NCBI RefSeq assembly: GCF_018613325.1
Contig: NZ_JAGGQJ010000005.1
Location: 124,001-188,000 of the forward strand
Direction of reading: 5' to 3'
DNA: 64,000 nt
Source of the DNA: Bacillus sp. ISL-34
Lineage (GTDB): Bacteria; Bacillota; Bacilli; Bacillales; DSM-1321
The position numbers and the translations under genes were made by a program. Below are positions 26,712 through 46,816 of this stretch, in pieces. The notes below the pieces were generated by a model. The model did not search any database. It had not been told where the DNA came from and saw only the letters and a program-made list of their open reading frames with translations. Numbering within the stretch: position 1 is the stretch's first letter; each line of letters opens with the position of its first letter.

Positions 26712-28262
26712 ATGAGCTTACTTTCTATAGATAAATTAGCACACAGCTTTGGTGACCGCACCTTATTCAAGGATGTATCCTTCCGCCTGATGGCCGGGGA
26801 ACATGTAGGCCTGGTCGGGGCGAATGGTGTCGGGAAGTCAACGATGATGAATATCATTACAGGACAACTCATCCATGATGATGGCCGGGTCGAATGGACA
26901 CCTGGTGTCGAATATGGCTATCTTGATCAACATACGATACTTTCTAAAGGTAAATCGATTCGCGACGTCCTAAGGGATGCGTACTTACCTTTATTCGAGC
27001 AGGAAAAAGCACTGAATGAAGTTACAGAGAAAATGGGTACGGCCACTCCGGAGGAACTTGAAGAACTCTTGGAACAAATGGGTGAAATCCAGGACAAGCT
27101 GGAAGCCGGCGGTTTTTACAATCTGGATATTAAAATTGAAGAAGCGGCACGCGGTTTAGGGTTGGATGCAATCGGATTGGACCGCGATGTCTCTGCCCTA
27201 AGCGGCGGACAACGGACAAAGGTTTTATTGGCGAAGTTACTATTGGAACAACCGCAAGTCCTGCTGCTCGACGAGCCTACCAACTACTTGGATGTGGAGC
27301 ATATCCGCTGGCTGAGCAGCTACTTAAAGGAATACCCACATGCATTTCTATTGATTTCGCATGATACCGAGTTCATGAACGGCGTCGTCGACGTAATCTT
27401 CCATCTTGAATTTTCTAAACTGACCCGTTACACGGCAACTTATGAAAAATTCCTTGAGCTGGCTGAATTGAATAAAAACCAACATATTAACGCATATGAA
27501 AAACAGCGCGAATTCATTAAAAAGCAGGAAGATTTCATTGCAAAAAATAAAGCACGCTATTCAACGACCGGCCGGGCAAAGAGCCGTCAAAAGCAATTGA
27601 ATCGCATGGAACGTATCGATCGTCCAGAAACTGCAATGAAACCTACCTTTGACTTTAAAGAATCACGTGCGAGCAGCCGTTATGTATTTGAAGGTGAAGA
27701 TTTGGAAATCGGATATGACCGCCCATTGCTTCCGAAGTTGTCCATGACCATCGAGCGGGGAGAAAAAATTGCCGTAGTCGGCTGTAATGGAGTTGGTAAA
27801 TCCACTCTATTAAAAACGATTTTGGGTAAAATCGATCCTCTAGGCGGTAAAAGATCACTTGGAGATTTCCTTTTTTCTTCTTATTTTGAACAGGAAGTGA
27901 AAGCAGGCGATACGACGCCGATCGATGAAGTATGGAATGCATTTCCGCATCTGGACCAACCGCAGGTACGTGCGATCCTTGCCCGTGTCGGTTTGAAAAA
28001 CGAGCACATTACACGTCCGATGAGCCATTTAAGTGGTGGGGAACAAGCAAAAGTGCGCCTATGTAAACTCATGCTTACCGAAAGCAATTGGCTGTTATTC
28101 GATGAACCGACAAACCATTTGGATGTAGTTGCAAAAGAAGAACTGAAACGTGCATTGAAAGAGTATAAAGGAACGATTGTCCTCGTATGCCATGAACCTG
28201 ATTTCTATGAAGATTGGGTTACGAAAGTATGGGATGTAGAGGAATGGTCGGCCCAAAATTAA
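26712..28262 (+). CDS. ABC-F family ATPase (YfmM-like)
   Basis: A 516-residue soluble protein with two ABC domains and no membrane segments. Walker A motifs GANGVGKST (near residue 38) and GCNGVGKST (near 356), signatures LSGGQRTK and LSGGEQAK, Walker B LLLDEPTNYLD and LLFDEPTNHLD. The linker of about 80 residues between the domains (EKQREFIKKQEDFI, then RAKSRQKQLNRME) is the P-site tRNA interaction motif region typical of ABC-F proteins, which act on the ribosome. Length and N-terminus resemble B. subtilis YfmM. GGGAGG upstream supports ATG 26,712. Whether it has an antibiotic resistance role cannot be told. Confidence 0.9.
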   Translation: MSLLSIDKLAHSFGDRTLFKDVSFRLMAGEHVGLVGANGVGKSTMMNIITGQLIHDDGRVEWTPGVEYGYLDQHTILSKGKSIRDVLRDAYLPLFEQEKALNEVTEKMGTATPEELEELLEQMGEIQDKLEAGGFYNLDIKIEEAARGLGLDAIGLDRDVSALSGGQRTKVLLAKLLLEQPQVLLLDEPTNYLDVEHIRWLSSYLKEYPHAFLLISHDTEFMNGVVDVIFHLEFSKLTRYTATYEKFLELAELNKNQHINAYEKQREFIKKQEDFIAKNKARYSTTGRAKSRQKQLNRMERIDRPETAMKPTFDFKESRASSRYVFEGEDLEIGYDRPLLPKLSMTIERGEKIAVVGCNGVGKSTLLKTILGKIDPLGGKRSLGDFLFSSYFEQEVKAGDTTPIDEVWNAFPHLDQPQVRAILARVGLKNEHITRPMSHLSGGEQAKVRLCKLMLTESNWLLFDEPTNHLDVVAKEELKRALKEYKGTIVLVCHEPDFYEDWVTKVWDVEEWSAQN

Positions 28263-28270
28263 TTTTTTTA

Positions 28271-28303
28271 GGGGATGTCGCAAAACGCGGCATCCCCTTT
28301 TTA
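28271..28303 (+). terminator. Terminator of the ABC-F gene
   Basis: 11-bp stem GGGGATGTCGC / GCGGCATCCCC (one T-G pair), loop AAAAC, then TTTTTATT. Confidence 0.85.
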
Positions 28304-28429
28304 TTCGGAAAGTCACGAAAAAGCAATGGCGATTGCTGATAAACCTTATTATGATTGAAGAAATTTTCACTTCGATCTTCAAAGTAAAGATAGCAAAACC
28401 TGTAGATTCAATTCTGATTTTAAAACATG

Positions 28430-28625
28430 ACTAGGTTATCCTTTATGGTTTTTCACTGTTTTATAAAACCCTAACTGGATAGAGGAGACCCCGCTAGATG
28501 CATGCTTTGATGATGCTTGGCAGACAGTCGGCGGAAAGGAAGCGGATTTCCAAAAACCGGAACATTTTTCACAGAAAAAAACTGTAGGCAAACTCGCTTT
28601 CTTCGAATTTGTCTACAGTCTGAAG
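28430..28625 (+). repeat. Dispersed Bacillus intergenic repeat, copy C
   Basis: Shares GGTTATCCTT, GACCCCGCTAGATGC, GATGCTTGGCAGACAGTCGG and CGGAAAGGAAGCGGATTTCC with the copy at 40,330-40,590, in the same order. It ends in the same hairpin (ACTGTAGGCAAACTCG...CGAATTTGTCTACAGT) at about 28,580-28,620. The remainder of the 28,304-28,791 gap shows nothing else I can support. Confidence 0.75.
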
Positions 28626-28791
28626 GTAAATTCTATAGTTTTTTCATTTTCCTTCTGCCATGAGATTGGCCAAATTAAGCAATACTCTTAACGTAATTGA
28701 ATGAAACTGAACTGTGCTATTGAATAGTCAGAATGCTATCATGTGTACAGCCTCAGGAGATTTTGGTGATCTTGGCCATTAGCTCAGCTTA

Positions 28792-30198
28792 TCAATTTCC
28801 ATTATATTGGTAGTTAATCACCTTTTGTTTTTTCGGTTTTTCTCTATACCTCAGGAAGTAAAGGATCAGTGTCAATGTAACGGCTATAGTCAATTGAATT
28901 ATAAAGATTGTTTTAATAATAAATAACGTTTCAATACTGATTCCAATAACCATATACGAAACGATCATCAAGGCCTTTATCTTTTTTTGAATTTCATACT
29001 TATAAAAGCAATCTATGATTAAGCTTAACATTAGAAAACAGTAGAAGGCCTTATAGCCATCAAGTATCAATAAAAAGGGAATACCCTCTACCAATACTTT
29101 TAATAAAAGAAGAAGCGTGAACGTTACAATCAGAAAAAAACCATTCGTAATGTCTACGGCGATTCGTTCCATTTTTAATGAGATGGGTAATACATCAAGT
29201 CTAAGCTTTTGATGTAATTTATATTCAATTTTGATATTTGTTAAATTTAGGAAGTTGACAAAAAATGCAATATAAATGGTATCCACGAAAAAGTTAGTAT
29301 GTATATCTTCGATTTTCATAAATGGTAAATACATACTAATTAAATTAAAGACGATAACTGTAATATTAATCGTAATGAGTTTACTAATATAGTTAACATC
29401 TCTCAGTAGCCTGAAGAAATTGTACTTTATTAGACCATTTATAACTTTATTCCGTATGAGGATATTCACTACCCTTGTAGATATCCGGTTTGTGACGTGA
29501 TTGAACTTCTGAGAATTTAGATTGGCACCTTTTTCTTTTATTAACCCACCGACAATGATTGGATAAGTGATAAACGTTATTACTAAAAACATACAGAGAA
29601 TAAGCAAAATGGTTGTTATCGTGAAATCTAATTTGGATAATAAAGGCGAAAGTTTACTTGAATTAATATAAAATATTAAAACGATGAGAAGGGCAATGGC
29701 TGAAAAATACGGGAATCGAACCTGATACTTCTTAAACCATAGGATGAAAAACTCAGAATATGTCCGAAGAAACTTCAATGAGAAAACAAAGAATAATAGC
29801 AATAGGATATTTAACGTTGGTGCCCCGTAAAATAAAAGAAAAGAAACCACGATTGTAAGCTCTAGAACAATTTCTGCTGTTAGGTTCGATTTAATCAAAT
29901 GATAAAAAAAGAGTTGGTTGGGCTTAATCGGAATGGTTTTGGAAAAGCTTATGATATAAGTGGTGCTTTCATATAAAGCCATAAACACAAAAAGCAATAA
30001 CAACTCGATTACGGTGAGCACAATGATATAATAGTAGATTACCGTACTCGTATGTACATCAAAAAAGGAAAAAAGGGTAAAGAGCAAAGAAACCCAAAAA
30101 AGAGCTGTGAATAATAATTTTACAGCTTTTTGTTTTTGGTTTAGACTCTTTTCTTCGGTATAGATATTGTATAACTTGCTGTATGAATGAAAATTCAT
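28792..30198 (-). CDS. ABC transporter permease, about 12 helices, bacteriocin-linked
   Basis: A 468-residue, strongly hydrophobic protein with roughly twelve membrane segments and basic loops. No family motif is recognised beyond an ABC-2-like overall plan. Its start overlaps the ATPase gene by 4 bases (ATGA), so the two form one exporter. The pair follows a 70-residue bacteriocin-like gene on the same strand, suggesting export of, or self-protection against, that peptide. DNA is markedly AT-rich. No good terminator is evident behind it; the repeat at 28,430-28,625 begins about 170 bases downstream. Confidence 0.7.
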   Translation of the reverse strand: MNFHSYSKLYNIYTEEKSLNQKQKAVKLLFTALFWVSLLFTLFSFFDVHTSTVIYYYIIVLTVIELLLLFVFMALYESTTYIISFSKTIPIKPNQLFFYHLIKSNLTAEIVLELTIVVSFLLFYGAPTLNILLLLFFVFSLKFLRTYSEFFILWFKKYQVRFPYFSAIALLIVLIFYINSSKLSPLLSKLDFTITTILLILCMFLVITFITYPIIVGGLIKEKGANLNSQKFNHVTNRISTRVVNILIRNKVINGLIKYNFFRLLRDVNYISKLITINITVIVFNLISMYLPFMKIEDIHTNFFVDTIYIAFFVNFLNLTNIKIEYKLHQKLRLDVLPISLKMERIAVDITNGFFLIVTFTLLLLLKVLVEGIPFLLILDGYKAFYCFLMLSLIIDCFYKYEIQKKIKALMIVSYMVIGISIETLFIIKTIFIIQLTIAVTLTLILYFLRYREKPKKQKVINYQYNGN

Positions 30199-30890
30199 TC
30201 TACTACCCTCTCTGTCATTTCTTCATTTTTTTGACTATGAAGCTTTCCATTTTCCAATCGATATATGCAGTCGGAAATATCCCATGTATGGTCCATGATA
30301 TGACTTGTGAATAAAGTTGCTTCTCCATTTGCTTTTCGTTTTAAAAAATATGCTTTCACCCAGTTAACAGCCTCATGGTCCAAGCCCTCGAAAATTTCGT
30401 CACATACCAATACCTTAGGATTATAAAGAATGCTACCGATCAATTGGATTTTTTTCTTTGTTCCGAAAGATAAAGAACTAAATGTGGAATCTAATTGATT
30501 TATGACATTCAATTCCTCCGCTAAGGATGTATATTTAGCAACAACTGATTCTTCTGGAAGGTTGTATATAGAAATTATAAGTTCAAAGAACTCTTTTCCG
30601 GTAACCTTCTCCAAATGCAGTTGATTATCAACCGAAACAAACGAAGTAACTGTTCTCAGGAAGTTATGATCATTATGATTTTTATTCAAAATATTAATTT
30701 CACCTGAATCATAATCCATGAAGTTCAATAAGCAGTTTAAGAAAACACTTTTTCCAATTCCGTTACTTCCTACTATCGCTACTATTGAATCATGTTCAAT
30801 AGTTAAATTTAAATTGTCTAATACTTTCTTGGAACCAAAACTCTTATTTAGATGATGAACCTCTATACTATTAATCGCAATCACATCCAA
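30195..30890 (-). CDS. ABC transporter ATPase of the bacteriocin-linked exporter
   Basis: A 231-residue ABC ATPase with Walker A GSNGIGKSV (near residue 36), Walker B VLVCDEIFEGLD and switch His in LFTSHIMD. The signature is LSFGTKKK in place of LSGGQ, a variant common in ABC-2 type exporters of peptides. It ends overlapping the permease gene. ATG 30,890 has no clear ribosome site, so the start is provisional. The spacing to the bacteriocin-like gene is 95 bp, with no convincing terminator between, so read-through is possible. Export or immunity role inferred from context. Confidence 0.8.
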   Translation of the reverse strand: MDVIAINSIEVHHLNKSFGSKKVLDNLNLTIEHDSIVAIVGSNGIGKSVFLNCLLNFMDYDSGEINILNKNHNDHNFLRTVTSFVSVDNQLHLEKVTGKEFFELIISIYNLPEESVVAKYTSLAEELNVINQLDSTFSSLSFGTKKKIQLIGSILYNPKVLVCDEIFEGLDHEAVNWVKAYFLKRKANGEATLFTSHIMDHTWDISDCIYRLENGKLHSQKNEEMTERVVE

Positions 30891-30985
30891 TTTAACTTAT
30901 AGTATCTATATCGTACCAGAAATTACAGATAAAGTAATGACATTAGGATAAGTATTAGGTTTTGTTGCTTAAGTTAAATTAATAA

Positions 30986-31198
30986 TTAATCTATTAGTCC
31001 AGCAGCTCTTAATGCATCATAGATTGCATATAGTGCACTTGCGTTTGATGCTAACCATTTAGTGAAAGCCCAGTATCCAGCTTCCCATGCAGCTTTTGCT
31101 GCACTGTATACTGAGTATGCGCCAGCTTTGATTGCGTCCCATGCTCTAGATCCGTATTTTGCGATTGCGTTATAAATTTTAATAGCGATACTTAACAT
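30986..31198 (-). CDS. Bacteriocin-like cationic peptide, 70 residues, no leader
   Basis: ATG 31,198 is preceded by AAAGGTGG. The product begins MLSIAIKIYNAIAKYGSRAW and is rich in Ala, Tyr (7) and Trp (4); it has no Cys, seven basic and four acidic residues (net about +3), and several amphipathic helix-like stretches (AAKAAWEAGYWAFTKWLA). There is no double-glycine leader or Sec signal. The I-A-K-Y-G-S/K segment resembles leaderless aureocin A53/lacticin Q-type bacteriocins, but the peptide is longer than their about 50 residues. An ABC exporter is encoded directly downstream and an agr system just upstream on the same strand. A circular bacteriocin or a membrane-active toxin are alternatives. 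Confidence 0.65.
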   Translation of the reverse strand: MLSIAIKIYNAIAKYGSRAWDAIKAGAYSVYSAAKAAWEAGYWAFTKWLASNASALYAIYDALRAAGLID

Positions 31199-31534
31199 TT
31201 TTAATCATCCACCTTTTGGTTTTTTTTAATTTCCTAATGTCATTTACGATATCCTGCTTTAATAATACAAAAGGAAATAAGAAAAAAAAGGGAAAAAAGG
31301 CAATGTTTCGGAAACGCGAAATCCCTTTCCCTCAGGTGGTTTCGTCTTTCCGCAATTCCTTTTAGATTCATAGAAATTCTATGTAAATTATGGTAAAATT
31401 TCCTTTCATGGATTAGTAATTTCGTTTCTCCCGGATGGAGAAATGAGGCTTTCATTTTTTAAACGCTATAATTAAGAGCATAAAATCCATGTTATACATA
31501 ATCAGCTTTTAAACTTAGAAAAGGAGTTTTTATA

Positions 31535-31729
31535 GTGAAGAAACTGACCGTATTTTTCGAAATTATCTTTGTACTAAGTTTCGTTGGTTTAACGCTCCGG
31601 TTTTTTGGAGTTGAAAAGGCAGAAGATTGGGGCATCATCTTTTACATAACGGGTGGATCTAGTTTCTTAATCAGTTACTTGCTTCGACAATCTACAAAGA
31701 AAAAAGATACCGTAAGTAGTGATAAATAA
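31535..31729 (+). CDS. Small two-helix membrane protein, possible immunity protein
   Basis: 64 residues from GTG 31,535 with AAAGGAG ahead at good spacing. It starts MKKLTVFFEIIFVLSFVGLT, has a second hydrophobic segment at about residues 32-50 (IIFYITGGSSFLISYLL), and ends in a hydrophilic, lysine-rich tail. A TATAAT-like box lies near 31,469 and a terminator hairpin follows the stop. It is divergent from the bacteriocin-like gene. Small membrane proteins with charged tails often give immunity to leaderless bacteriocins, but this role is only inferred from position. Confidence 0.6.
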   Translation: MKKLTVFFEIIFVLSFVGLTLRFFGVEKAEDWGIIFYITGGSSFLISYLLRQSTKKKDTVSSDK

Positions 31730-31766
31730 AGGCACTTAATGACTGCACCCACTTCCATTCCCACTT

Positions 31767-31803
31767 AAAAAGGCGTACTCCATGAGGAGCTGCGCTTTTT
31801 ATT
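31767..31803 (+). terminator. Terminator of the small membrane protein gene
   Basis: Imperfect hairpin AAAA-GCG-TA-CTCC / GGAG-TG-CGC-TTTT with an ATGA loop and a final T run. Confidence 0.6.
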
Positions 31804-31839
31804 TTGTTTATATTGATGGCAACTTGTTATTTAACAGTA

Positions 31840-32060
31840 TAGAAAAGGATAAATATGATCCCATCCTGCGGTTTATCGTACGGCTCCTCCATACTTTATG
31901 GCCCCCCTATTAATTACCGGCAGGGAGATTACCCCAATTCCCCTAGGGTCTAAAGGAAGTTAAATTAGGTGTTGCCATTTGAGACACCAAGAGGGTCTTG
32001 GTGAAGTGAGTCCATCAACTCCTTATCCTCCCCTCGGTCAGTACCGTTGACAGACGCCAA
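31840..32060. other. GC-rich, non-coding block between the small membrane gene and agrA
   Basis: This stretch of about 220 bases is much richer in G and C than its surroundings (for example CGGCTCCTCC, GGCCCCCC, CTCCCCTCGGTCAG). It carries local inverted repeats such as GGTGTTGCCATTTGAGACACC and CACCAAGAGGGTCTTGGTG. Neither strand has a convincing open frame. A strong terminator follows directly on the plus strand. It could be a structured RNA or a remnant of a mobile element; I could not identify it. Confidence 0.4.
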
Positions 32061-32064
32061 ATAG

Positions 32065-32107
32065 AAAAAGGGTTATTATCTAAATTTAGATAAGAACCCT
32101 TTTTCTA
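32065..32107. terminator. Bidirectional terminator next to agrA
   Basis: Long stem AAAAAGGGTT-AT-TATCTAAA / TTTAGATA-AG-AACCCTTTTT. It would end plus-strand transcripts from the GC-rich block and is about 180 bases beyond the agrA stop on the minus strand. Confidence 0.75.
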
Positions 32108-32285
32108 TTTTCCCACTACCCATATAAGATAGAATTACCGCAATACTGCCCCAGAGTATTACTTGATCTTTTTTTCAAATTGACACCTTCTTAACAAGGA
32201 ATACCGCCTAATTGGTACATATGCCTAGCAATTCAGGTAAACTCCATATCCATAGATTATCCCTTCTTTGGCACTTTTAAAAAAA

Positions 32286-33005
32286 TTAGAAATGTTGTTC
32301 GATGAGATTTTTTAATGCCGTAAATTTGTGCCGGCTTAAGTTTATCTTGTGATTGCAGTGATGTAATTTCACATTATATGATTTCATATAATTGTCCGAT
32401 TCTATGTATTCAATTTGGTCAATCGACACTAAATACGATTGATGTGTTCGATAAAAATTACACTGATTAAGAATGTCTTCTAACTTATTTAAGCCTTCTG
32501 AGCATTCCACAGTCTTTGCATCTTTTAGGTGGATAAATGTTTTTCTCCCCTTTTTCTCAATATAGAGAATGTTGGAGGTATCGATTAAAGATATTTTCCC
32601 ATTCGCTTTTACGCCAATTCTTCTTATCTTTTTATGCGTATAACTAAGGCGATCAAGCGTCTGCTTTAGTCTAACAATATTAATGGGCTTAGTTAAAAAA
32701 TCTTCTGGGTAATATTTGTAACCCTGCAAAGCGAAGTCTTGATGGGCACTCATGAAAATAATCTTGATTTGGGGATGATTTTCTTTCAGGTAATGGGCAA
32801 TGTCAAACCCATTGGACACAGGCATATTAATATCTAATAATAATACGTCAATGGGCAGCCCTTGATCGATAGAATTAAACAATTCGCTCACATCTGTTGT
32901 ACTAAATATCAAATTTACATTTGGGAATTTATTTACAAATCCCTTAATCTCGTTAAGGATAGGTTCCTGATCATCAATAACAGCAAGACGTATAAATCCC
33001 ATCAT
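32286..33005 (-). CDS. agrA: AgrA-type response regulator (REC + LytTR)
   Basis: A 239-residue LytTR-family response regulator. The receiver domain has the acidic pair DD at 11-12, phospho-acceptor Asp58 (LLLDINMP) and Lys near 111 (FLTKPIN). The LytTR DNA-binding domain spans about residues 135-235 (YIEKKGRKTFIHL, YRTHQSYLVSIDQIEYIES, NLSRHKF). It would be phosphorylated by the AgrC-like kinase encoded upstream and activate agr and target genes. AGGAG overlaps the agrD stop region 6-7 bases before its start, so translation is likely coupled. It is the last gene of the C-B-D-A operon. Confidence 0.85.
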   Translation of the reverse strand: MMGFIRLAVIDDQEPILNEIKGFVNKFPNVNLIFSTTDVSELFNSIDQGLPIDVLLLDINMPVSNGFDIAHYLKENHPQIKIIFMSAHQDFALQGYKYYPEDFLTKPINIVRLKQTLDRLSYTHKKIRRIGVKANGKISLIDTSNILYIEKKGRKTFIHLKDAKTVECSEGLNKLEDILNQCNFYRTHQSYLVSIDQIEYIESDNYMKSYNVKLHHCNHKINLSRHKFTALKNLIEQHF

Positions 33006-33011
33006 AAACTC

Positions 33012-33131
33012 CTAGTTTTCTTCATCTGGTAGCTCTGGTTCGTAGGAAAACCAGAAACAACTACTCATCGAGGTAATGGAATTAAAAAATAACGATATCA
33101 TTCCAATAGCAAAAGTAAGAAATTTTAACAT
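33012..33131 (-). CDS. agrD: AgrD-type autoinducing peptide precursor
   Basis: A 39-residue ORF: MLKFLTFAIGMISLFFNSIT then SMSSCFWFSYEPELPDEEN. It has the three AgrD parts: an amphipathic, hydrophobic leader, a short Cys-containing core and an acidic tail with E-P-x-L-P. Aligned with the Listeria precursor (CFMFV before YEPKSP), AgrB cleavage after Ser29 would give a Cys25-Ser29 thiolactone ring, C-F-W-F-S, with one or more N-terminal tail residues. It starts 2 bases before the agrB end region, has GGGG spaced upstream of ATG 33,131, and is 6 bases from agrA. Confidence 0.85.
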   Translation of the reverse strand: MLKFLTFAIGMISLFFNSITSMSSCFWFSYEPELPDEEN

Positions 33132-33133
33132 AA

Positions 33134-33766
33134 TCAATGTAACCCCTTTAAGGTAATTTTATATATAAAAGCATCTAAAATTAAGACGCATTTCCCCCAA
33201 GAATCTGTTAAGGTGAGTCCTTGGAAAATTAGAGCAGACCAAACACAATACATCATCGTTTGAGGTAGGAAAACGCTAAATACCATGCATAGAATGAATG
33301 TGGTCACAGCCCTCATTTTCAGTTTTAAAGTACCTTTTCTTGTGAAAAGGTGCTTTTTTTTATGTAATATAGGTGCTTTTTGAACAGTAATTAAAAAACT
33401 TATAAATAATAATAAGATAAATGGAATCTTATAGGATGAAAGAATGTCTGTATATTGTACGCAAATTAATGTTAAAAAAATAATTTGCAACATGCTTAGA
33501 ATAAGACATGAATAATACCCTTTGAAATGGGCGCCTCCTGAAAACATTCGAAGGAGAGCACCCGAAAGCAGGCCAATCATTGTTTCAGGTAAAATCCCTA
33601 ATGGCCAAACAAGAAAACTAACCAAAACGATTTGATTCATCCCCGATATCATCCATTCAAGTCCATAGCGGATCTTTTCTTTACTTTTTATGAGTTGCGG
33701 ATTCTCGGAGATAACTAGATTTGAGATATTCGTTGCCCAATAGTTCGGTAAGAAATACTTAAACAT
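33134..33766 (-). CDS. agrB: AgrB-type peptide processing/cyclising membrane protease
   Basis: About 210 residues (ATG 33,766; an in-frame start at 33,778 lies four codons upstream). It has several hydrophobic helices and the AgrB catalytic pair in RMFSGGAHFKGYYSC: the His of GGAH and the Cys seven residues later. AgrB removes the acidic tail of AgrD and forms the thiolactone. The ORF overlaps the agrC 3-prime end and is directly followed by agrD. Family assignment is firm from the His/Cys motif plus the adjacent precursor. Confidence 0.85.
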   Translation of the reverse strand: MFKYFLPNYWATNISNLVISENPQLIKSKEKIRYGLEWMISGMNQIVLVSFLVWPLGILPETMIGLLSGALLRMFSGGAHFKGYYSCLILSMLQIIFLTLICVQYTDILSSYKIPFILLLFISFLITVQKAPILHKKKHLFTRKGTLKLKMRAVTTFILCMVFSVFLPQTMMYCVWSALIFQGLTLTDSWGKCVLILDAFIYKITLKGLH

Positions 33767-35039
33767 ATTGCCCTCCATGGGGTATTTTTACAATGAACGT
33801 AATCATGTCATCTATGACTTCCGGGTATATATGTCCTCCATACTGCATGACAAGACTTTCAACAATGGCCAATCCCTGTCCAGTGTTCCATGCATTAGTT
33901 TTAGTTGTAAAGCCTTGCTCGAAGATACTCCCAATATTTTCAAAAGTTCCATCCTCTATAAAATTGCTTACTTCCAAAATATAATGGACATCGTTTCTTT
34001 GGATTTTCATGTTGATATATCTCTTATCCTCTTCTAATTGATCGACGGCTTCAATTGCATTAAGGATTAAATTTCCGAATATCTTATTTGTTTCATAAAT
34101 CTTACATGGAAAGGAAGATAAATCATCTGCAATGTAGTAGTACATGTTGATGCCTTTTTTGGCACCCTTCTCTTTGTAGGATAGTAATAATCCCCCAACA
34201 GCCTCTGAAGATATCGGTAATACATCGCTTACGTATGATATTTCTTCCAGCAAAGAGTTAACATAGTCTACTGAGTCATCGTATTTTCCACTGTTCAGCA
34301 TTTGTTTCAGCGCTAAAATGTGATGAATAAAGTCGTGTCGCTGCGAACGCATTGTAGTGATATGTTTAGAAATGTCTTCTTCATATTGACCATCTAAGGA
34401 AACAGCCAGATCCTCAATTTTTTTTACCATATGATACCGGATTAGATACAATAATGAAATTGTAATAAAAACTAACACTATAGCCGATGTTATGCTTAAA
34501 AACTTTAACTGCTTGAATTCAAAAACGAAGATGTAAAACAAAAAAAGAAGGCCAAATAAGAATACTAAAACAGATAAAATAGCATCGTTTTTATTTTGTT
34601 TTTTCTTGACTGGTATCGGAATATAATAATTTGCTTTTCTCAAGATCACATAAAATATTACCATTATCACAAGATGTGGAATGGCCCTTGCTAAAGGTAT
34701 AGCACTCAATGAATGAATGTAGGGGAATTCTTTAAAGAGCGTGAATCCGATAACCTCTGATATTAACAATAAAAGACATCCTAGCAACACAGCTATAATT
34801 GATGCAAAACTATTCAGGTTTGTGACAAATGTCAACAAAAACCCAATCGCTAAAATCGTTACTAGAAGGTAAGTTATCGAAGGCAATGTTTCTTTTACCA
34901 TTAACAGAATGATACTTCCATAAAAACTTACGATGCATATCGGGATCATTTTATCTTTTAAAGAAATTCCAATCAGTCGATACCCCACAAGGATAATGAT
35001 TACCGTTTCCAAAAACCCACCGAAAATCGACAATAACAC
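33759..35039 (-). CDS. agrC: AgrC-type sensor histidine kinase
   Basis: A 426-residue HPK10-class kinase from GTG 35,039, which has AAGGAGG at good spacing. The first about 200 residues form six or seven membrane segments that would sense the autoinducing peptide. The phospho-acceptor is in MRSQRHDFIHHILAL. The ATPase region has the N box (NLILNAIEAVDQ) and G box GQGLAIVESLV. It is first in the operon, ahead of agrB, agrD and agrA, an order that differs from the staphylococcal B-D-C-A. It is transcribed divergently from a solo LuxR-type regulator, and the shared intergenic region carries a palindrome. Confidence 0.88.
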   Translation of the reverse strand: MLLSIFGGFLETVIIILVGYRLIGISLKDKMIPICIVSFYGSIILLMVKETLPSITYLLVTILAIGFLLTFVTNLNSFASIIAVLLGCLLLLISEVIGFTLFKEFPYIHSLSAIPLARAIPHLVIMVIFYVILRKANYYIPIPVKKKQNKNDAILSVLVFLFGLLFLFYIFVFEFKQLKFLSITSAIVLVFITISLLYLIRYHMVKKIEDLAVSLDGQYEEDISKHITTMRSQRHDFIHHILALKQMLNSGKYDDSVDYVNSLLEEISYVSDVLPISSEAVGGLLLSYKEKGAKKGINMYYYIADDLSSFPCKIYETNKIFGNLILNAIEAVDQLEEDKRYINMKIQRNDVHYILEVSNFIEDGTFENIGSIFEQGFTTKTNAWNTGQGLAIVESLVMQYGGHIYPEVIDDMITFIVKIPHGGQYV

Positions 35040-35112
35040 GACAAACTTCCTCCTTAACTTTACAAAAATACCATAAAAGGAGTAATTTTACATCATTTTT
35101 CAGGATAATTTA

Positions 35113-35125
35113 TGCAAATATTGCA
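35113..35125. promoter_or_regulatory. Palindrome between agrC and the LuxR-type gene
   Basis: TGCAA-ATA-TTGCA, a perfect 5-bp inverted repeat with a 3-base spacer in the divergent promoter region. A candidate operator for the HTH protein or AgrA-like regulator; no direct evidence. Confidence 0.35.
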
Positions 35126-35251
35126 AATTAGGGCAAAATATTTGTTAATTGGGATAAAATAAGCGTAGTTAAGACCCACTTGGACCTTTATGACCAAATC
35201 AGATAATAACTCTGGTAGTATTTGTTTAATAATGAATGGAGGAGTGTTATC

Positions 35252-35461
35252 GTGAAAAATGAAAAAGTGGGGTTTAATAGTGTAGAAAGTCGTATTATTC
35301 AGCTTATTGCCAGTGAGGTGCCAAATAAACAAATTGCACTAGAATTAAACTATTCGCAGAGGATGGTAGAGTACTATATTAGTAATATTTCCAAGAAACT
35401 TGAAGTACATACACGAGTAGGCATTGTTGTGAAAGCATTTCAAAATAACATTCTCCATTAA
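35252..35461 (+). CDS. Stand-alone LuxR/GerE-type HTH regulator
   Basis: 69 residues from GTG 35,252, which has TGGAGGAG 10 bases upstream. It is almost only a LuxR-type DNA-binding domain: ESRIIQLIASEVPNKQIALEL, then NYSQRMVEYYISNISKKLEV and RVGIVVKAF. No receiver or ligand domain is present; GerE is a comparable size. It stands divergent to agrC (212-bp shared region), suggesting it regulates, or is regulated with, the agr/bacteriocin region. It could be constitutive, or controlled by its own synthesis. Confidence 0.8.
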   Translation: MKNEKVGFNSVESRIIQLIASEVPNKQIALELNYSQRMVEYYISNISKKLEVHTRVGIVVKAFQNNILH

Positions 35462-35628
35462 AATAATACTCCTTCTATGACGTTACTTTTCTATTAGCCT
35501 GTAGAGAAAAATTGTCCTTTCTCTCTACAAGCTTCTAAAAAACATTTTACATAAAAATATGTATCCTTTTTAACAAGGTTAAATTGGGGGCCTGTTCTTA
35601 CTTGGATCCAAAAGTAGCAGCAACTGTC

Positions 35629-37359
35629 CTAATTCAGGAAGAGGAGCGTAATCTTTGTACCCTTATTTTCTTCAGATTCGACTTCGATCGTTCCATTATG
35701 GTATTCAACCAGTTGTTTTGTTATAGCAAGTCCTAACCCTGTTCCATCAGTATCTTCTGTTACAGATGTGCCCCGATAATACCGATTAAATAAATTTTGC
35801 CTCGTATATTCGTCCATGCCTATTCCGTTATCCTGAACATGGATGGTGAAACAATCTTTCCCTTGTTTTACGATCACCCCAATAGAGGTTCCTTCAAGAT
35901 TGTATTTTGCTGCATTACTTAACAGGTTCACAATAATCCTCTTGAAATACTTCTTATCAATTTTATAGAAAATGGGATTTTCTTCGACGTCGACGGTATA
36001 AAAGTGATGTTTTTCAACATTCGTTCTAAAAAATTGATTTACAGCTTCCTTAGTAAAGTCATTAATATCAACCTCTTCTCTATACATCGGAAGCGCATTG
36101 TTTTTTATGCGATAGGTTAAGTTGATGTCTTCTATGAGATCCGACATATAGGATGCGTTCTGTTCAATCGATATGTAAAAGTCACGAACTTCATCCTCTG
36201 TCCAATTATAATCAGTGGAATTCAGCATCACTGCATATCCGTAGATAGTACTTAGAGGAGTTTTCAAATCATGTGAAAGTCCCGAAATCCATTCTTCTCT
36301 CGTTTGTTCTATTTTTTTCTGCTGCAATTCACTTTCTATAAGCATATTTGTCAGCTTTTTCAACGAATTTATGACCTCTTTAAACGGTTTAAAAGACGAT
36401 TTAAGATTTCCGTTTGTTTTCAGACTATACGCCAAATCCTTACGTTTCCCCAGTGGTTCCTCATAGACACCTTTGGCTAGCAATTGAAGCCAGTGAATGA
36501 TATGGATAATCGGCTTTCCAAACTTCTGAGCATACCACCAAGAAATCATAAATAGAATAAGCAACATCACAATGAGGGTAATAACTAGCCCTTTTAGTAC
36601 TGTTTGATTAATATTAATTGAACTAAACATGTGCTCTTCGTAGTTTTTATTGGGAGCCATTACGACATAAGATGTGTCTGACTCCTTGTTATAGTAAGTG
36701 GCGATGTTCTCTGTTTTTTCCCAATAGCTATCTTGAAAATCCACTATCTGAAACAAGGAAGGTTCTGCTAGATTTTCATTCGTTACATACTGTCTCAATA
36801 ACTCACTCTGATCATCATAAATGTAAAGATTAGCCTTTTCCTTGGATAACACTTTTTTGATTCGTTCAGTGACCAACTGTTTTTCGTCTGATTTCCCCAT
36901 CTGTTCTCTAACCACTCTGATGATTTCATCCAAAGTTCGCTTTGAACCGAATACAGCAATGAATGACTGATTTTTTATATCAAGGGACCAAAACGTTCTT
37001 TCATTCGATTGGTTTGATGTCATTTCAATTATTTGTTGTTTTGAATAGGCTGATGGAAGGCCCTGAGGTGTATTCAGGGAAAACTGAACTTCACCTTTTT
37101 TATCAATGATCTGTAGCCATCCATCCTGTTTAAGAATGCTTTCCTTGATATTCTCATTTACGCTTACTTGTCCGTCATTTAGCTTTATGGATTGCTGCAG
37201 GAAATCACCTGGCGTTTTGGAAAAATCCTCCTTTGCATCTTGTTCAACGATGGAAAATGCTAGAATGAGAAGGCCAATTACTGAAAAGAAAATCAAGAAA
37301 CTTAAAGCCATGACAATTTGAACAATAAATTTAATAATCAGATGCTGTGTAACACTCAT
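35629..37359 (-). CDS. Sensor histidine kinase (two-component)
   Basis: A 576-residue membrane kinase. One N-terminal helix (about 12-38), an extracellular domain of roughly 220 residues, a second helix (about 260-280), HAMP-like linker, then H box GLSHDLKTPLSTIYGYA, N box NLLSNAAKYN, and G boxes DNGIGMD and GTGLGLAITKQL. Its 5-prime end overlaps the response regulator by 4 bases. With the divergent ABC transporter it forms a TCS-ABC module of the kind that responds to cell-envelope stress or peptide antibiotics in Firmicutes; the signal is not known. Confidence 0.88.
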   Translation of the reverse strand: MSVTQHLIIKFIVQIVMALSFLIFFSVIGLLILAFSIVEQDAKEDFSKTPGDFLQQSIKLNDGQVSVNENIKESILKQDGWLQIIDKKGEVQFSLNTPQGLPSAYSKQQIIEMTSNQSNERTFWSLDIKNQSFIAVFGSKRTLDEIIRVVREQMGKSDEKQLVTERIKKVLSKEKANLYIYDDQSELLRQYVTNENLAEPSLFQIVDFQDSYWEKTENIATYYNKESDTSYVVMAPNKNYEEHMFSSININQTVLKGLVITLIVMLLILFMISWWYAQKFGKPIIHIIHWLQLLAKGVYEEPLGKRKDLAYSLKTNGNLKSSFKPFKEVINSLKKLTNMLIESELQQKKIEQTREEWISGLSHDLKTPLSTIYGYAVMLNSTDYNWTEDEVRDFYISIEQNASYMSDLIEDINLTYRIKNNALPMYREEVDINDFTKEAVNQFFRTNVEKHHFYTVDVEENPIFYKIDKKYFKRIIVNLLSNAAKYNLEGTSIGVIVKQGKDCFTIHVQDNGIGMDEYTRQNLFNRYYRGTSVTEDTDGTGLGLAITKQLVEYHNGTIEVESEENKGTKITLLFLN

Positions 37360-38072
37360 TTGACCGATTTGCTCACAAATTTATACCCAATGCCACGAAC
37401 TGTAATTAGTAGCTTTGGATTACTTGGATCTTGTTCGATTTTTTCCCTTAGCTTTCGCATATGTACAATAACCGTATTTTCATCTCCGTAGGAGTCTGCC
37501 CCCCACACCCTATCATAAAGCTGTTGTTTTGAAAAAATCTGATTAGGAGACTTGGCGAAGAAAGTCAGCAGCTGATAAAGCTGAGCTGACAAGTTTATTT
37601 CTTTTCCATTTACTTTTACAACAGCCTCATTGTAATTAATGAATAAGACGCCATTATCAAATCTATCATTAACTTGTGAAAAACTAAGGTTCTTATTAAT
37701 TCTTTTCAATTGAGCTTTAATTCGGGCAACTAGTTCCAATGGGTTAAATGGCTTCGTTATATAATCATCAGCCCCATATGCAAATCCTGATACTTTATCA
37801 AAATCTGAACCTCTAGCAGTGAGAAAAAAAATTGGAACATCCGATCTTCTTCTTATGATGGAACAGATATCAAACCCTTCCATATCCGGAAGCATGACAT
37901 CTAACAAAATTAAATCATATTCATTTTGTTCAATTAAGTCGAGTGCATCTCTCCCAACATATGAAGCATCGACGTTTGTAAAGCCTTCTTTTTTCAATAA
38001 CACTTTGACCATCTTAACCAACGTCATTTCATCATCCACGATTAATATTCTTGATGCATGCATATTTATCAC
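37356..38072 (-). CDS. OmpR-family response regulator
   Basis: A 238-residue regulator with receiver domain (VDDE near residue 13, phospho-acceptor in LILLDVMLPDMEG, K in TKPFNPLEL) and winged-helix output domain (QLLTFFAKSPNQIFSKQQLYD, GDENTVIVHMRKLREKI). It is cotranscribed with the kinase by overlapping stop/start codons. The 130-bp divergent region to the ABC genes contains near-repeats around TTAACAATTTTAAGG and GTTCTGTTAATG that could be binding sites. Confidence 0.9.
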   Translation of the reverse strand: MINMHASRILIVDDEMTLVKMVKVLLKKEGFTNVDASYVGRDALDLIEQNEYDLILLDVMLPDMEGFDICSIIRRRSDVPIFFLTARGSDFDKVSGFAYGADDYITKPFNPLELVARIKAQLKRINKNLSFSQVNDRFDNGVLFINYNEAVVKVNGKEINLSAQLYQLLTFFAKSPNQIFSKQQLYDRVWGADSYGDENTVIVHMRKLREKIEQDPSNPKLLITVRGIGYKFVSKSVK

Positions 38073-38205
38073 CCCTGATTAAAAATATATCACGAATAAC
38101 ATGTTGTAATTATCCAAAATTAACAATTTTAAGGTTCTGTTAATGTACCTTTATGTAAATGTTAATCTTGCGCTCTTATAATAAGTGGTGAAAGGAGCTG
38201 TCACG

Positions 38206-38895
38206 ATGACAACGATATGTTTACGAGAATTCAAGAGTCTATTCAAGAGTATTCGCTCAATTATTATTATTATTTTTATGCTTGGGGTTACATTAGGGTC
38301 AGCGAAGTTACTTAGTAAATGGAGCTCTGAGTTACAGGATGTAGGTCTTGATAATGCTTATATGGGCGGTCTTTATATTCTCCTGTTGCTCGCAGGTCCT
38401 ATTTTTGTTACGAGCTTATCTCATGATGTGATAAATCGAGAGACCCATTCTCGAACCATGCGTTTTTTAGTAACAAAATTGTCGAGGGACAAAATTGTTA
38501 TCGGAAAATTTTTAGGGGTTTCACTCTTCTGGTTTGTATGTATTTTACTATCTTTAATCATGTTGATTCCTTTTGCAAAAACATTCTACTTTGCCGAATT
38601 GATTGAATCAGTTATTTTCATTACGTACTTTGTTGCTCTGTTCCTATTAATCTCAACCTTAATTAATAAACCTGGATTAAGTATATTTTTAGGTATCATT
38701 CTATCGATTACACTTCCAGTTTTGGGGATTTGGGGTATGGTTTCAAAAGAAATAATCTTCCTGAGGATATTTAGTTACTTGACCCCTTACTTTTATGTAG
38801 GGCAGGAACAGTCATTTTATGTTTATTTCATCCCAATCTTGTCACTGGTCTTTCTCTTATCAAGCATAATAATTCTTAGAAAGAGGGATTTCTAA
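38206..38895 (+). CDS. ABC-2 type transporter permease
   Basis: About 229 residues from ATG 38,206 (AAAGGAGC upstream; an earlier in-frame start at 38,185 lacks this site). Six hydrophobic segments typical of ABC-2 permeases, with SHDVINRETHSRTMRFLVTK near residue 80, the element often seen in bacitracin/lantibiotic immunity permeases. It is followed directly by the ATPase gene (TAATG overlap) and is divergent from a two-component system that probably controls it. Confidence 0.8.
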   Translation: MTTICLREFKSLFKSIRSIIIIIFMLGVTLGSAKLLSKWSSELQDVGLDNAYMGGLYILLLLAGPIFVTSLSHDVINRETHSRTMRFLVTKLSRDKIVIGKFLGVSLFWFVCILLSLIMLIPFAKTFYFAELIESVIFITYFVALFLLISTLINKPGLSIFLGIILSITLPVLGIWGMVSKEIIFLRIFSYLTPYFYVGQEQSFYVYFIPILSLVFLLSSIIILRKRDF

Positions 38896-39824
38896 TGTAT
38901 GCTTTTGAAACAAATCAAATAACCAAAAAGTATGGAGATCATACCGTTGTCAATAAGGTTGATTTAAATGTTACCCAGGGTCATATATTCGGCTTCTTGG
39001 GGAAAAATGGAGCTGGAAAGTCAACCTTTATTAATATGGTAACGGGCATAACCACACCTACCTCCGGCGATTTTAAAATTCTCGGATCAGGTGAGATTAC
39101 GGAAGATAAAATCAAGCGAAGAATAGGCGTCCTTCCTGATTACTCCACTTTCTACGACGATCTAACCGGTATTGAACATTTAAAGTTCTTAGGAAATGTA
39201 TTAGGTGTGAGACGTTCAAAGGCTGATTTAATTGCGTTATTAGAACGTGTTGAACTTGGAGATGCAATTAAAACGAAAACCAAGAAGTATTCGTTCGGGA
39301 TGAAGAAAAAATTAGGTGTCGCCCAGGCGCTCATTAATGATCCGGATTTAATCTTTCTCGATGAACCAACTTCTGGTGTAGATGCAAACGCGGTTCTAAA
39401 TATCCATTCCTTGATTAAAAATGTAGCTGCAGAGGGAAAAACGATATTTTTAACATCTCATAACTTAAATGAGGTTGAAAAGCTTTGTGATGAAATTGCA
39501 ATAATGGATAAAGGCATTATTCAAGCTCAGGGAAGCATGGAACAATTAAGACATAAGTATCAATCTCAACTAACAGTTAAGGTGAAACACGGGAAGATTC
39601 CTATTGAGCACAAAGCCGGGTTACAACAAATTTTCGAGAAAATTGGAAAAGATATTGAGTGGGGAACAGAAAATACATCGTTAGTAGTAGCTGAAGAATC
39701 AAGCATTCCTGTCATTAATCGAGCCTTTTCCAATACAAAAGTGGATATCTATCGCCTTGAGGTCAATGAACCATCTCTGGAAGAAATATTCCGTAACCTT
39801 GGTTCTGGCCAGAGGGGAGCATGA
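38895..39824 (+). CDS. ABC transporter ATPase (BcrA-like)
   Basis: A 309-residue ATPase with Walker A GKNGAGKST (near residue 37), signature YSFGMKKKLG and Walker B LIFLDEPTSGVD. A C-terminal extension of about 90 residues ends in the EPSLEEIFRNL motif typical of drug-export ATPases of the BcrA/DrrA type. Translationally linked to the permease upstream, and its stop overlaps the leader of the AbrB gene (stop 39,824; AbrB start 39,826). Confidence 0.88.
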   Translation: MYAFETNQITKKYGDHTVVNKVDLNVTQGHIFGFLGKNGAGKSTFINMVTGITTPTSGDFKILGSGEITEDKIKRRIGVLPDYSTFYDDLTGIEHLKFLGNVLGVRRSKADLIALLERVELGDAIKTKTKKYSFGMKKKLGVAQALINDPDLIFLDEPTSGVDANAVLNIHSLIKNVAAEGKTIFLTSHNLNEVEKLCDEIAIMDKGIIQAQGSMEQLRHKYQSQLTVKVKHGKIPIEHKAGLQQIFEKIGKDIEWGTENTSLVVAEESSIPVINRAFSNTKVDIYRLEVNEPSLEEIFRNLGSGQRGA

Positions 39825-39825
39825 T

Positions 39826-40128
39826 ATGAAATCCACTGGAATTGTACAGAGACTAGATCCATTAGGAAGATTTTGCATACCTAGTGAAATAAGAAGGATG
39901 CTAGATTTGGAGATAAGTAACCCACTTGAAGTGTTTATAGATGACGAACAAATCATCCTTAAAAAATATGAACCGCAAAATGCATGTTTATTAACAGGAG
40001 AGGCATCCAGTCAAAATCTTATCCTAGGAGATGGCTCAATCATTCTGACTCCTAAAGCTGCAGAATTGCTTTATGAAGAATTGCAACATTTAATGGAGTC
40101 CCAAAATTTTGGAAACCAAGAACGTTAA
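39826..40128 (+). CDS. AbrB-family transition-state regulator
   Basis: 100 residues from ATG 39,826 (GGGGAG seven bases upstream). The swapped-hairpin AbrB DNA-binding domain is clear: MKSTGIVQRLDPLGRFCIPS, EIRRMLDLEISNPLEVF and IDDEQIILKKYEP, close to B. subtilis AbrB/Abh. The C-terminal multimerisation half (CLLTGEASSQN...LTPKAAELLYEEL) is also present. It is translated from the same message as the ABC transporter, an unusual place for an AbrB paralogue. The chromosome probably has a main abrB elsewhere. It may regulate this module or neighbouring antimicrobial genes. Confidence 0.88.
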   Translation: MKSTGIVQRLDPLGRFCIPSEIRRMLDLEISNPLEVFIDDEQIILKKYEPQNACLLTGEASSQNLILGDGSIILTPKAAELLYEELQHLMESQNFGNQER

Positions 40129-40194
40129 AGTAGGTTTTAACCTACCCTAAATGGAAAATATCAGCGATGGCAAAAGGGTTTGTAAAATTTGAAC

Positions 40195-40312
40195 GTTGAT
40201 TTCCATTCCAGGCACTCGCTTTCCGCGGGCGGTCTTTGCGCCTGCGGGGTCTCCCTTGGACGCGTTTTCCCCGCAGGAGTCTCGAACATCCGCTCCAATC
40301 AACTAGAAATTT
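40195..40312 (-). repeat. Dispersed Bacillus intergenic repeat, copy D (opposite orientation)
   Basis: Plus strand GTTGATTTCCATTCCAGGCA ... CTTTCCGCGGGCGGTC ... CCGCAGGAGTCTCGAAC ... CTCCAATCAAC. The ends are inverted (GTTGATT/AATCAAC). This is a GC-rich intergenic repeat of a kind I recognise from many Bacillus genomes. It faces copy B at 40,330-40,590, which has related blocks in the reverse order. Confidence 0.75.
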
Positions 40313-40324
40313 TTGAAAAAAACT

Positions 40325-40595
40325 GTAGGCTGGTCTCATCCCGAATTATGTTTAAGACTAGATTATCCTTAATGGTCTTTTACTGTAACCCTTATTGGAT
40401 TGAAGAAATTTGCGACACTCCTGCCGAATAACTGGCTAGCAAAGACCCTGCTAGATGCTTGCGGCGAGGAGGCTTGGCAGACAGTCGGCGGAAAGGGAAC
40501 GGATTTCTGAAATCAACTGTAACTTCTTTCAAAGAAAAAACTGCAGGCAAACACGCTTTACTTCGAGTTTGTCTACAGTCTGAGACCAGTATCGT
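40325..40595 (+). repeat. Dispersed Bacillus intergenic repeat, copy B
   Basis: Contains GATTGAAGAAATTTGCGACAC, CTGCCGAATAACTGGCTAGC, GGAGGCTTGGCAGACAGTCG and GGCGGAAAGGGAACGGATTT, shared with copies A and C, and ends with the hairpin CTGCAGGCAAACACG...CGAGTTTGTCTACAG. Together with copy D it fills most of the 40,129-40,702 gap; no gene is visible there. Confidence 0.75.
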
Positions 40596-40702
40596 ATGTA
40601 TACTGGTTCTTTTGAGTTCTATTTATTTTTCGCACGATTTTAAATCAAGTGAAGAACCAAAAAAGGCTCCTTCAGTCAATTTCCATTTCCTCAACATGCA
40701 GC

Positions 40703-46268: not shown

Positions 46269-46808
46269 TCACTGGTTCATTTGATCAAGGAAATCACCCA
46301 GGAGATCGTCAAGATTTTCCTCTTCCGGTTCGGTTTCTTCCTCTTGTTGTGAGGGTTCATCCAAATTCCAAGCAAAGTCATCCAGATCTTTCTTAGGTAA
46401 GTCTTCCTTGACCTCCTCCACTTCCCTTTCTTCAAGCTCAACCTGCATATATTCCTCATTCGATCCATTACTGTTCAAAGAGGCAAGCAAGGCGGTAGCT
46501 CGTAAAGGATCGGATAAAAGGTTGTACATTATCGTTCCAAGCATAGCTTCTGAGTGGGAATGCTTGAGCCAATCACGCTGAGATTTGCTTAGCTTGTTCG
46601 GCATGGGCAGGGCAATCATTTCCCGATCCTGATGGGTGGATTGCCCGACTCCATCAAGAACATACTCAGCAATTTTACTGGAAAAATTCCTTCTTTCCGT
46701 TTCCTTCAATTTCTGCAGCTGTCTTAACGTATAATCTGATACATCCGAAGGGATACGAAAAGTGATGGCTTGTCCTCTTTTAATTTCAGAAGAAGCTGTT
46801 TTTTTCAT
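46269..46808 (-). CDS. ParR-like partner of the ParM actin
   Basis: A 179-residue protein. The N-terminal about 60 residues (KRGQAITFRIPSDVSDYTLR, QLQKLKETERRNFSSKIAEY) are basic and look like a ribbon-helix-helix DNA-binding domain, as in ParR adaptor proteins. The C-terminal 60 residues are extremely acidic (EEREVEEVKEDLPKKDLDDF and EEENLDDLLGDF), ending in a hydrophobic/acidic helix that could contact the actin filament end. Encoded 8 bp after the ParM-like gene and closed by a terminator. The name comes from context and layout, since ParR sequences diverge strongly. Confidence 0.7.
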   Translation of the reverse strand: MKKTASSEIKRGQAITFRIPSDVSDYTLRQLQKLKETERRNFSSKIAEYVLDGVGQSTHQDREMIALPMPNKLSKSQRDWLKHSHSEAMLGTIMYNLLSDPLRATALLASLNSNGSNEEYMQVELEEREVEEVKEDLPKKDLDDFAWNLDEPSQQEEETEPEEENLDDLLGDFLDQMNQ

Positions 46809-46816
46809 TCTCTCAC

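Follow-up and report, generated by a model that had tools for sequence, protein, structure and literature searches.

In the agr quorum-sensing system of Staphylococcus aureus, AgrB carries a His/Cys pair, and the precursor AgrD is composed of a leader, a Cys core, and an acidic Pro-containing tail. The AgrD of Listeria has the core CFMFV followed by YEPKSP. The leaderless bacteriocins aureocin A53 and lacticin Q are about 50 amino acids (aa) long. An agr locus of Bacillus sp. ISL-34 is described here in which the AgrB and AgrD residues are like those of S. aureus, and which lies beside the gene for a peptide of 70 aa, pep70. The locus, agrC-agrB-agrD-agrA, occupies positions 32286-35039 on the minus strand of a stretch of 64,000 nucleotides (contig NZ_JAGGQJ010000005.1, positions 124,001 to 188,000), referred to as the window, and its neighboring genes overlap or almost touch.

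In PMC3673130, the gene order of S. aureus agr is given as BDCA and two systems of Lactiplantibacillus plantarum are described. In the pln system, the AgrC/AgrA-like proteins PlnB, PlnC, and PlnD control bacteriocins, and agr-type control of bacteriocins would therefore not be new in itself. The lamBDCA operon is an agr homologue and, according to the same source, does not appear to regulate bacteriocins. The aureocin A53 operon is described in PMC11580447 as having no obvious regulatory elements. AMEP412 is a 76-residue elicitor of a tobacco response from Bacillus (PMC6661057).

The agr cassette of the window is probably the cell-density switch of a mobile bacteriocin-like island, in which AgrA would act on a small helix-turn-helix (HTH) regulator and this regulator on a dyad ahead of the pep70 gene. 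Crowded cells may thereby release an antibacterial-looking peptide.

The agrCBDA locus and its signal precursor

The features of the locus are as follows.

33759..35039, minus strand: agrC, membrane sensor histidine kinase (GHKL), GTG start, 426 aa; PF14501 at 5.1e-14 plus SPOB_a
33134..33778, minus strand: agrB, membrane cysteine endopeptidase/cyclase with GGAH84...C91, 214 aa; PF04647 at 9.4e-27
33012..33131, minus strand: agrD, signal precursor, 39 aa from ATG; TIGR04223
33045..33059, minus strand: codons for C-F-W-F-S, the predicted five-residue signal ring, from the sequence and the homologues CFWFS, CFWFA, and CFWFL
32286..33005, minus strand: agrA, response regulator, 239 aa; Response_reg and LytTR DNA-binding domain (Pfam)
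32059..32110, minus strand: strong terminator-like hairpin 3' of agrA; the 91-nt stretch 32040-32130 gives -30.8 kcal/mol, z -5.2

The genes agrC and agrB overlap by 20 nt, and agrD and agrA are separated by 6 nt. The agrB stop codon lies 2 nt ahead of the agrD ATG or, if the in-frame TTG at 33137 is taken as the start (41 aa), overlaps agrD by 4 nt. These coordinates and the Pfam and NCBIfam matches bear out the original prediction of four agr genes on one strand with overlaps or tiny gaps. The location of AgrC in the membrane is suggested by its hydrophobic N-terminal half, and its identity is 95% and 91% with the copies in genomes G013 and G006, respectively. The catalytic GGAH...C pair that had been proposed for AgrB was confirmed, as H84 and C91 are invariant in all six aligned sequences, window copy included. 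No second AgrB match appears in the 5.38-Mb genome at E 0.001, and the agrB of the window is the only one.

The sequence of AgrD is MLKFLTFAIGMISLFFNSITSMSSCFWFSYEPELPDEEN. It scores 22 bits against NCBIfam TIGR04223 (quorum_AgrD; cut-off 19), and a 36-aa piece scores 21.9 bits. Relative to G013, agrD has three synonymous and no nonsynonymous differences, and the ratio of nonsynonymous to synonymous rates (dN/dS) relative to G006 is 0.10; the frame is thus not a chance open reading frame (ORF), and its earlier identification as AgrD holds. The family matches, the catalytic residues, and the purifying selection on agrD identify the four genes as an agr system, and each defining feature with an unambiguous test agrees. 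The dN/dS values relative to G013 are 0, 0.07, 0.12, 0.13, and 0.24 for agrD, agrA, agrC, the HTH gene, and agrB, respectively. That the agr genes are present but silent, as a decaying passenger, is highly improbable: the patchy spread (three of the 36 genomes of the genus) would fit such decay, and the intact frames and low dN/dS values argue against it.

AgrB relatives, with the own genome counted, were found in 17 of 199 genomes, in three of 36 in the genus, and in 28 of the 397 genomes taken from the order. They occur also in Rossellomorea aquimaris, R. arthrocnemi, Bacillus sp. BHET2, R. vietnamensis, and Halobacillus litoralis SL-4, which were counted once with G245, G349, G406, G195, and G360, respectively; G195, G245, G349, and G406 form the Rossellomorea group. 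Nine of the loci read combine the C-B-D-A order with an AgrD of the Cys type: those of the window, G013, G006, Halobacillus, G093, and the four Rossellomorea-group genomes. A disrupted agrD beside retained agrB and agrC was looked for in these, and the frame, with the core [SA]SCFWF[SAL][YH]EP[ED]LP, is intact in all nine. The core is SSCFWFSYEPELP in the window, G013, and G006, SSCFWFAYEP[ED]LP in the Rossellomorea group, ASCFWFAYEPDLP in Halobacillus, and SSCFWFLHEPELP in G093. In a tenth C-B-D-A locus (G300, L058), Ser replaces Cys in an AgrD-like frame. Other orders are C-A-B-D (L059, L060), B-D (L061), B-D-A-C (L062), and B-D-C-A (L065, L073), and agrB follows a short kinase in L063, L064, and L066-L068. 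The locus does depart from the staphylococcal B-D-C-A order, as had been noted, yet C-B-D-A is the usual order of this agr subfamily and is not unique.

The prediction of a CFWFS thiolactone carrying a short tail is well founded as an analogy to characterized autoinducing peptides (AIPs). For AIP rings of this type that have no exotail, PMC11297923 reports rearrangement to homodetic peptides, and the ring predicted here, if it has no exotail, may rearrange quickly. AgrD-like frames with Ser and no Cys at the core stand beside agrB in L058, L062, L063, L064, L065, and L069; these sequences suggest that several relatives in the order use lactone signals in place of thiolactones.

Two further observations concern the regions downstream of agr. 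An Rfam RF01691 Bacillus-plasmid RNA is matched just downstream of agrA at 32002-32054 on the minus strand (45.6 bits, cut-off 31), also in G013 (L019 7928-7981) and in a second copy in the own genome (G000:C17:5083); it was not found in seven other loci scanned. In G093 (L022 10936-14341), the C-B-D-A genes are followed by a 69-aa ORF, an ATP-binding cassette (ABC) ATPase with a 500-aa ORF after it, and a protein resembling PqqD (E 0.0012), and agr may control a further peptide cluster there.

The peptide gene, its upstream dyad, and the candidate relay

The genes and sites that would connect agr with the peptide are listed below.

30986..31198, minus strand: pep70, leaderless peptide of 70 aa, predicted five-helix bundle (homologues and AlphaFold2 model)
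31306..31321, no strand: proximal dyad TTTCGGAAACGCGAAA, 107 bp upstream of pep70
31340..31355, no strand: distal dyad TTTCGTCTTTCCGCAA, reverse complement TTGCGGAAAGACGAAA, 141 bp upstream of pep70
35252..35461, plus strand: standalone GerE/LuxR-type HTH regulator, GTG start, 69 aa; PF00196 at 2.1e-11
35040..35251, no strand: shared divergent promoter region of agrC and the HTH gene, from an alignment of eight loci, with a TACCAGA-type block kept in G006, where the HTH gene is missing
30195..30890, minus strand: ABC transporter ATPase downstream of pep70, 231 aa; PF00005; 58% identity in Halobacillus, 60% in G133
28792..30198, minus strand: partner permease of that ATPase, 468 aa, no Pfam family; 38% in Halobacillus
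31535..31729, plus strand: orf64, small hydrophobic protein divergent from pep70, candidate immunity protein; homologues at 98% in G013 and 35% in Halobacillus

The 16-bp dyad TT[GT]CG-N6-CG[AC]AA (TTKCG-N6-CGMAA) is common to the upstream alignments of the pep70 genes and of the genes for a 76-aa sister peptide. In each of six lineages (window/G013, Rossellomorea, Halobacillus, G133, G308, and G242) it is found 91-107 bp ahead of the peptide start, and this position holds before either peptide type, pep70 or AMEP412-like. The distances are 107 and 141 bp in the window, 98 bp in the four Rossellomorea genomes, 100 bp in Halobacillus, 96 bp in G133, and 100 bp in G308; that of G242 is about 91 bp, the start codon there not being fixed. 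Thirteen pieces were scanned (window, L019-L021, L023-L027, L078, L088, L095, and L096), and L021 (same place as L026) and L088 (fetched for its match, which is coding) were set aside from the count. Eleven exact dyads were obtained in nine islands. Ten are upstream of peptide genes, two of them in the window, and the eleventh is in G242 just upstream of an ABC-2 pair. No exact dyad was found in G006 (L020). The tighter form TTGCGGAAANACGMAA appears once each in the own genome (G000), G195, and G133, in none of the eight sites of G006, and in two among the 9 of 16 sites listed for G360, one of them within a coding frame. The dyads of G308 and G242 fit only the looser pattern. It is the position of the dyad, not its genome-wide frequency, that stands out.

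The homologues of pep70 are 91% identical in G013, 51% in Halobacillus, and 46% in G133. A search of the 397 genomes of the order with pep70 returned four matches including its own, one of which was judged spurious, and missed the pep70-bearing G013. The AlphaFold2 model from four sequences is a five-helix bundle with a mean predicted local distance difference test score (pLDDT) of 95.1 and a predicted template modeling score of 0.82. Counted by hand, pep70 has seven K/R and four D/E residues. An orf64-like small ORF was seen by eye in G133, and orf64 has no Pfam match. Membership of pep70 in the aureocin A53-like family (PF11758/NF033881) was rejected; the window copy is unmatched, and the Halobacillus homologue, the only copy that touches PF11758, does so at E 0.9-1 with 9.7-9.9 bits, below the cut-off of 25.

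The four Rossellomorea-group genomes keep agr, the HTH gene, a second ABC pair, and a two-component pair. Their islands give no pep70 match; beyond the kinase gene they encode a peptide of 76 aa together with an ATPase and a permease for it. All four peptides exceed the cut-off of the AMEP412 family (NF040841), and the two scanned match AMEP412_fam at 2e-41 and 1e-40. Membership of pep70 in this family was likewise rejected, as it gives no match where the 76-mers score 138-140 bits (cut-off 45). No meaningful similarity exists between pep70 and the 76-mer, the best alignment being eight residues at E 0.11. AlphaFold2 also gives five helices for the 76-mer (mean pLDDT of 96.0 for the best model, 70.5-96.0 over five models). 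AMEP412-family genes occur in six of the 397 genomes: G195, G245, G349, and G406, which have agr, and G308 and G242, which have no AgrB match with a profile that does detect the agr-positive genomes. G308 and G242 carry the HTH gene, the exporter, and the second ABC pair; an OmpR-type pair is present in G308 and was not seen in G242 over the 17 kb that were read. A class II lanthionine synthetase (L096 9118-12102, minus strand; DUF4135 and LANC_like) is encoded within the AMEP412-type island of the latter genome.

These sister peptides bear on whether pep70 is antibacterial at all. It is unlikely that pep70 is instead an amphipathic secreted peptide for surfaces or hosts, as AMEP412 is on plants, with agr timing that factor. 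The Rossellomorea peptide does belong to a family named after a tobacco-response elicitor (PMC6661057). Against this reading, a dedicated exporter, a small membrane protein encoded divergently, and a second ABC pair that has a two-component system of its own resemble an arrangement for protecting the producer, and two AMEP412-type peptides match the aureocin A53 model weakly (E 0.02-0.04).

The other regulator that might bind the dyad is encoded with the following genes.

35629..37359, minus strand: sensor histidine kinase, 576 aa; HATPase_c and HisKA
37356..38072, minus strand: OmpR-type response regulator, 238 aa; Response_reg and Trans_reg_C
38185..38895, plus strand: ABC-2 permease, 236 aa; PF12679
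38895..39824, plus strand: ABC ATPase with DrrA-like C-terminus, possible self-protection transporter, 309 aa

Ten dyad loci were counted, with the mismatched pair of G013 included. The HTH gene is present at nine, the OmpR-type regulator at nine, and agr at seven, and these counts alone do not separate the two regulators as dyad binder. The locus with no HTH gene is that of G133. This genome has a truncated copy of 50 aa on another contig, next to a displaced piece of the pep70 permease (31% across 154 residues, at E 1.5e-17), and its unit therefore seems to have been split. In all seven agr-positive islands, from three families, the HTH gene and agrC are divergent neighbors. These islands have no dyad between the two genes, even with one mismatch allowed, whereas in G308 and G242 the dyad sits between the divergent HTH and peptide genes. 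This arrangement suggests that agr was inserted to serve as a new input to the HTH gene. The agrC/HTH region has conserved blocks and no clear LytTR repeat pair by eye. The TACCAGA-type block probably serves agr autoregulation, since G006 keeps it with no HTH gene.

Several results weigh against a circuit from AgrA through the HTH protein to pep70. Neither the agrC/HTH promoter nor the region at pep70 yielded an AgrA site, and the window copy of pep70 has no family match in Pfam or NCBIfam. Both window dyads are present in G013 (L019) with one mismatch each. The dyad is not enriched over a reversed-pattern control in the five genomes counted: the own genome has 19 sites, including the two at pep70, 34 bp apart, against 30 in the control, and the corresponding numbers are 8 against 28 in G006, 43 against 42 in G133, 15 against 28 in G195, and 16 against 16 in G360. 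The OmpR-type regulator could own the dyad, as its one absence is from the 17 kb that were read of G242, a genome that is 80% complete, and the HTH gene is missing at the G133 locus itself. Since G308, G242, and G133 have the peptide/dyad unit and no AgrB match, agr is not required for the unit. G006 has agr but no HTH homologue at E 1e-6, no pep70, and no tight dyad, so agr can serve other targets.

The last three points would also be expected if agr were genuine but controlled dispersed chromosomal genes, its place in the island reflecting co-transfer, with the OmpR-type pair sensing the peptide and running it. This alternative is fairly unlikely. It draws on the presence of the OmpR-type pair even at G133, and it is opposed by the constant agr-HTH neighborhood and by G242, which has two dyads and no OmpR-type match in the region read. 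The circuit through the HTH protein is retained as the probable one. A broader proposal is advanced tentatively: agr may have been plugged into an older self-contained module of HTH protein, dyad, and peptide, with a standalone GerE-like protein as the relay of the AIP signal to leaderless five-helix bacteriocins that form a new family. The module would swap its peptide (pep70 or AMEP412-like) and keep its operator, and an exchangeable quorum-sensing front end and an exchangeable effector back end would travel together as Bacillales islands.

Borders and distribution of the island

The boundaries of the island and the gene at its right end are given by the following features.

28305..40660, no strand: whole inserted island, 12.36 kb; empty site between ABC-F and methyltransferase genes in relatives
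28340..28623, no strand: left imperfect direct repeat in several aligned pieces; main piece 28472-28623 against 40429-40583, 82%
40356..40583, no strand: right imperfect direct repeat, from alignment to the left repeat
39826..40128, plus strand: AbrB/SpoVT-like transition-state regulator at the right end; PF18277 and PF04014; start picked by comparison with G013

The methyltransferase gene to the right is present in all 36 genomes of the genus. The site was read in 13 of the 34 genus genomes other than the window and G013, and the island is absent from all 13. The gap between the ABC-F and methyltransferase genes is about 106-121 bp in eight and about 1.16 kb in five; the latter (L101, L102, L103, L105, and L109) hold another insert of about 1.05 kb. 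Alignment of the eight short sites to the window sets the left edge at 28304 in seven and at 28324 in one. The direct repeats are just inside both ends, the main piece being 82% identical over 156 columns. The identical site of G013 holds the same island. In G006 the site is empty (L107), and agrCBDA is found elsewhere, with the rest of the island missing there.

Halobacillus litoralis SL-4 keeps agrCBDA, the HTH gene, pep70 with the ATPase and the permease of its exporter, orf64, both genes of the second ABC transporter, and the two-component genes, in rearranged order. Its contig encodes ParA-like and Rep-like proteins, identified by eye (L027 896-1702 and L079 3606-4700), and this island copy may be plasmid-borne.

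The G+C content of the 2-kb blocks between 28 and 40 kb is 34-36%, compared with 41-47% in most other blocks; further low blocks are at 16-24 and 48-50 kb. The segment 18000-24000 (27-35%), with a subtilase and an acyltransferase-SGNH protein, is likely a separate acquisition. At 46269-48010 (minus strand), an Alp7A-like actin homologue and a small partner ORF with no Pfam match resemble a plasmid-segregation pair.

Proposed circuit and comparison with known systems

By analogy with established agr biology, AgrB would cut and cyclize AgrD to a short ring peptide, predicted as C-F-W-F-S, and AgrC would sense this peptide and phosphorylate AgrA. AgrA would then activate the divergent agrC/HTH promoter, giving autoinduction and more HTH protein, which would bind the dyads and turn on pep70. 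The adjacent ABC exporter would release the leaderless five-helix peptide. The producer may be protected by orf64 and by the second ABC pair, the latter run by the OmpR-type kinase and regulator.

With the proposed circuit, an agr system from outside the usual pathogens would have a definite target open to testing and would not be left as an orphan signal. It comes with a predicted signal peptide and points to an uncharacterized peptide family with an exporter and likely immunity. The shared operator is a search handle for further clusters and offers a clean test of the way in which quorum sensing becomes attached to a regulator already in place. Searches of open-access papers gave no description of the package of C-B-D-A agr, GerE-like relay, and leaderless peptide island.

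The S. aureus agrBDCA operon has the same four gene functions and a LytTR regulator, as here. The locus differs in its C-B-D-A order, in giving no RNAIII match in an Rfam scan of window positions 28000-41000, and in the adjoining peptide island. The AIP of Listeria monocytogenes and other pentameric AIPs likewise have an aromatic ring core of five residues, C-F-x-F-x, with YEP after it; the Listeria genes differ in their order and genomic surroundings. The pln system is a separate one with its own propeptide, PlnA (PMC3673130), unlike the locus here. Compared with the AMEP412 family, the sister islands have the 76-aa helical peptide together with an ABC exporter, the HTH gene, and the dyad, whereas pep70 is outside the family and two of the six AMEP412-type genomes have no AgrB match. 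Aureocin A53 and lacticin Q are short, helical, leaderless peptides with an ABC transporter and an IAKYG-type start, and pep70, helical by prediction, resembles them in these features; pep70 is the longer peptide, at 70 aa.

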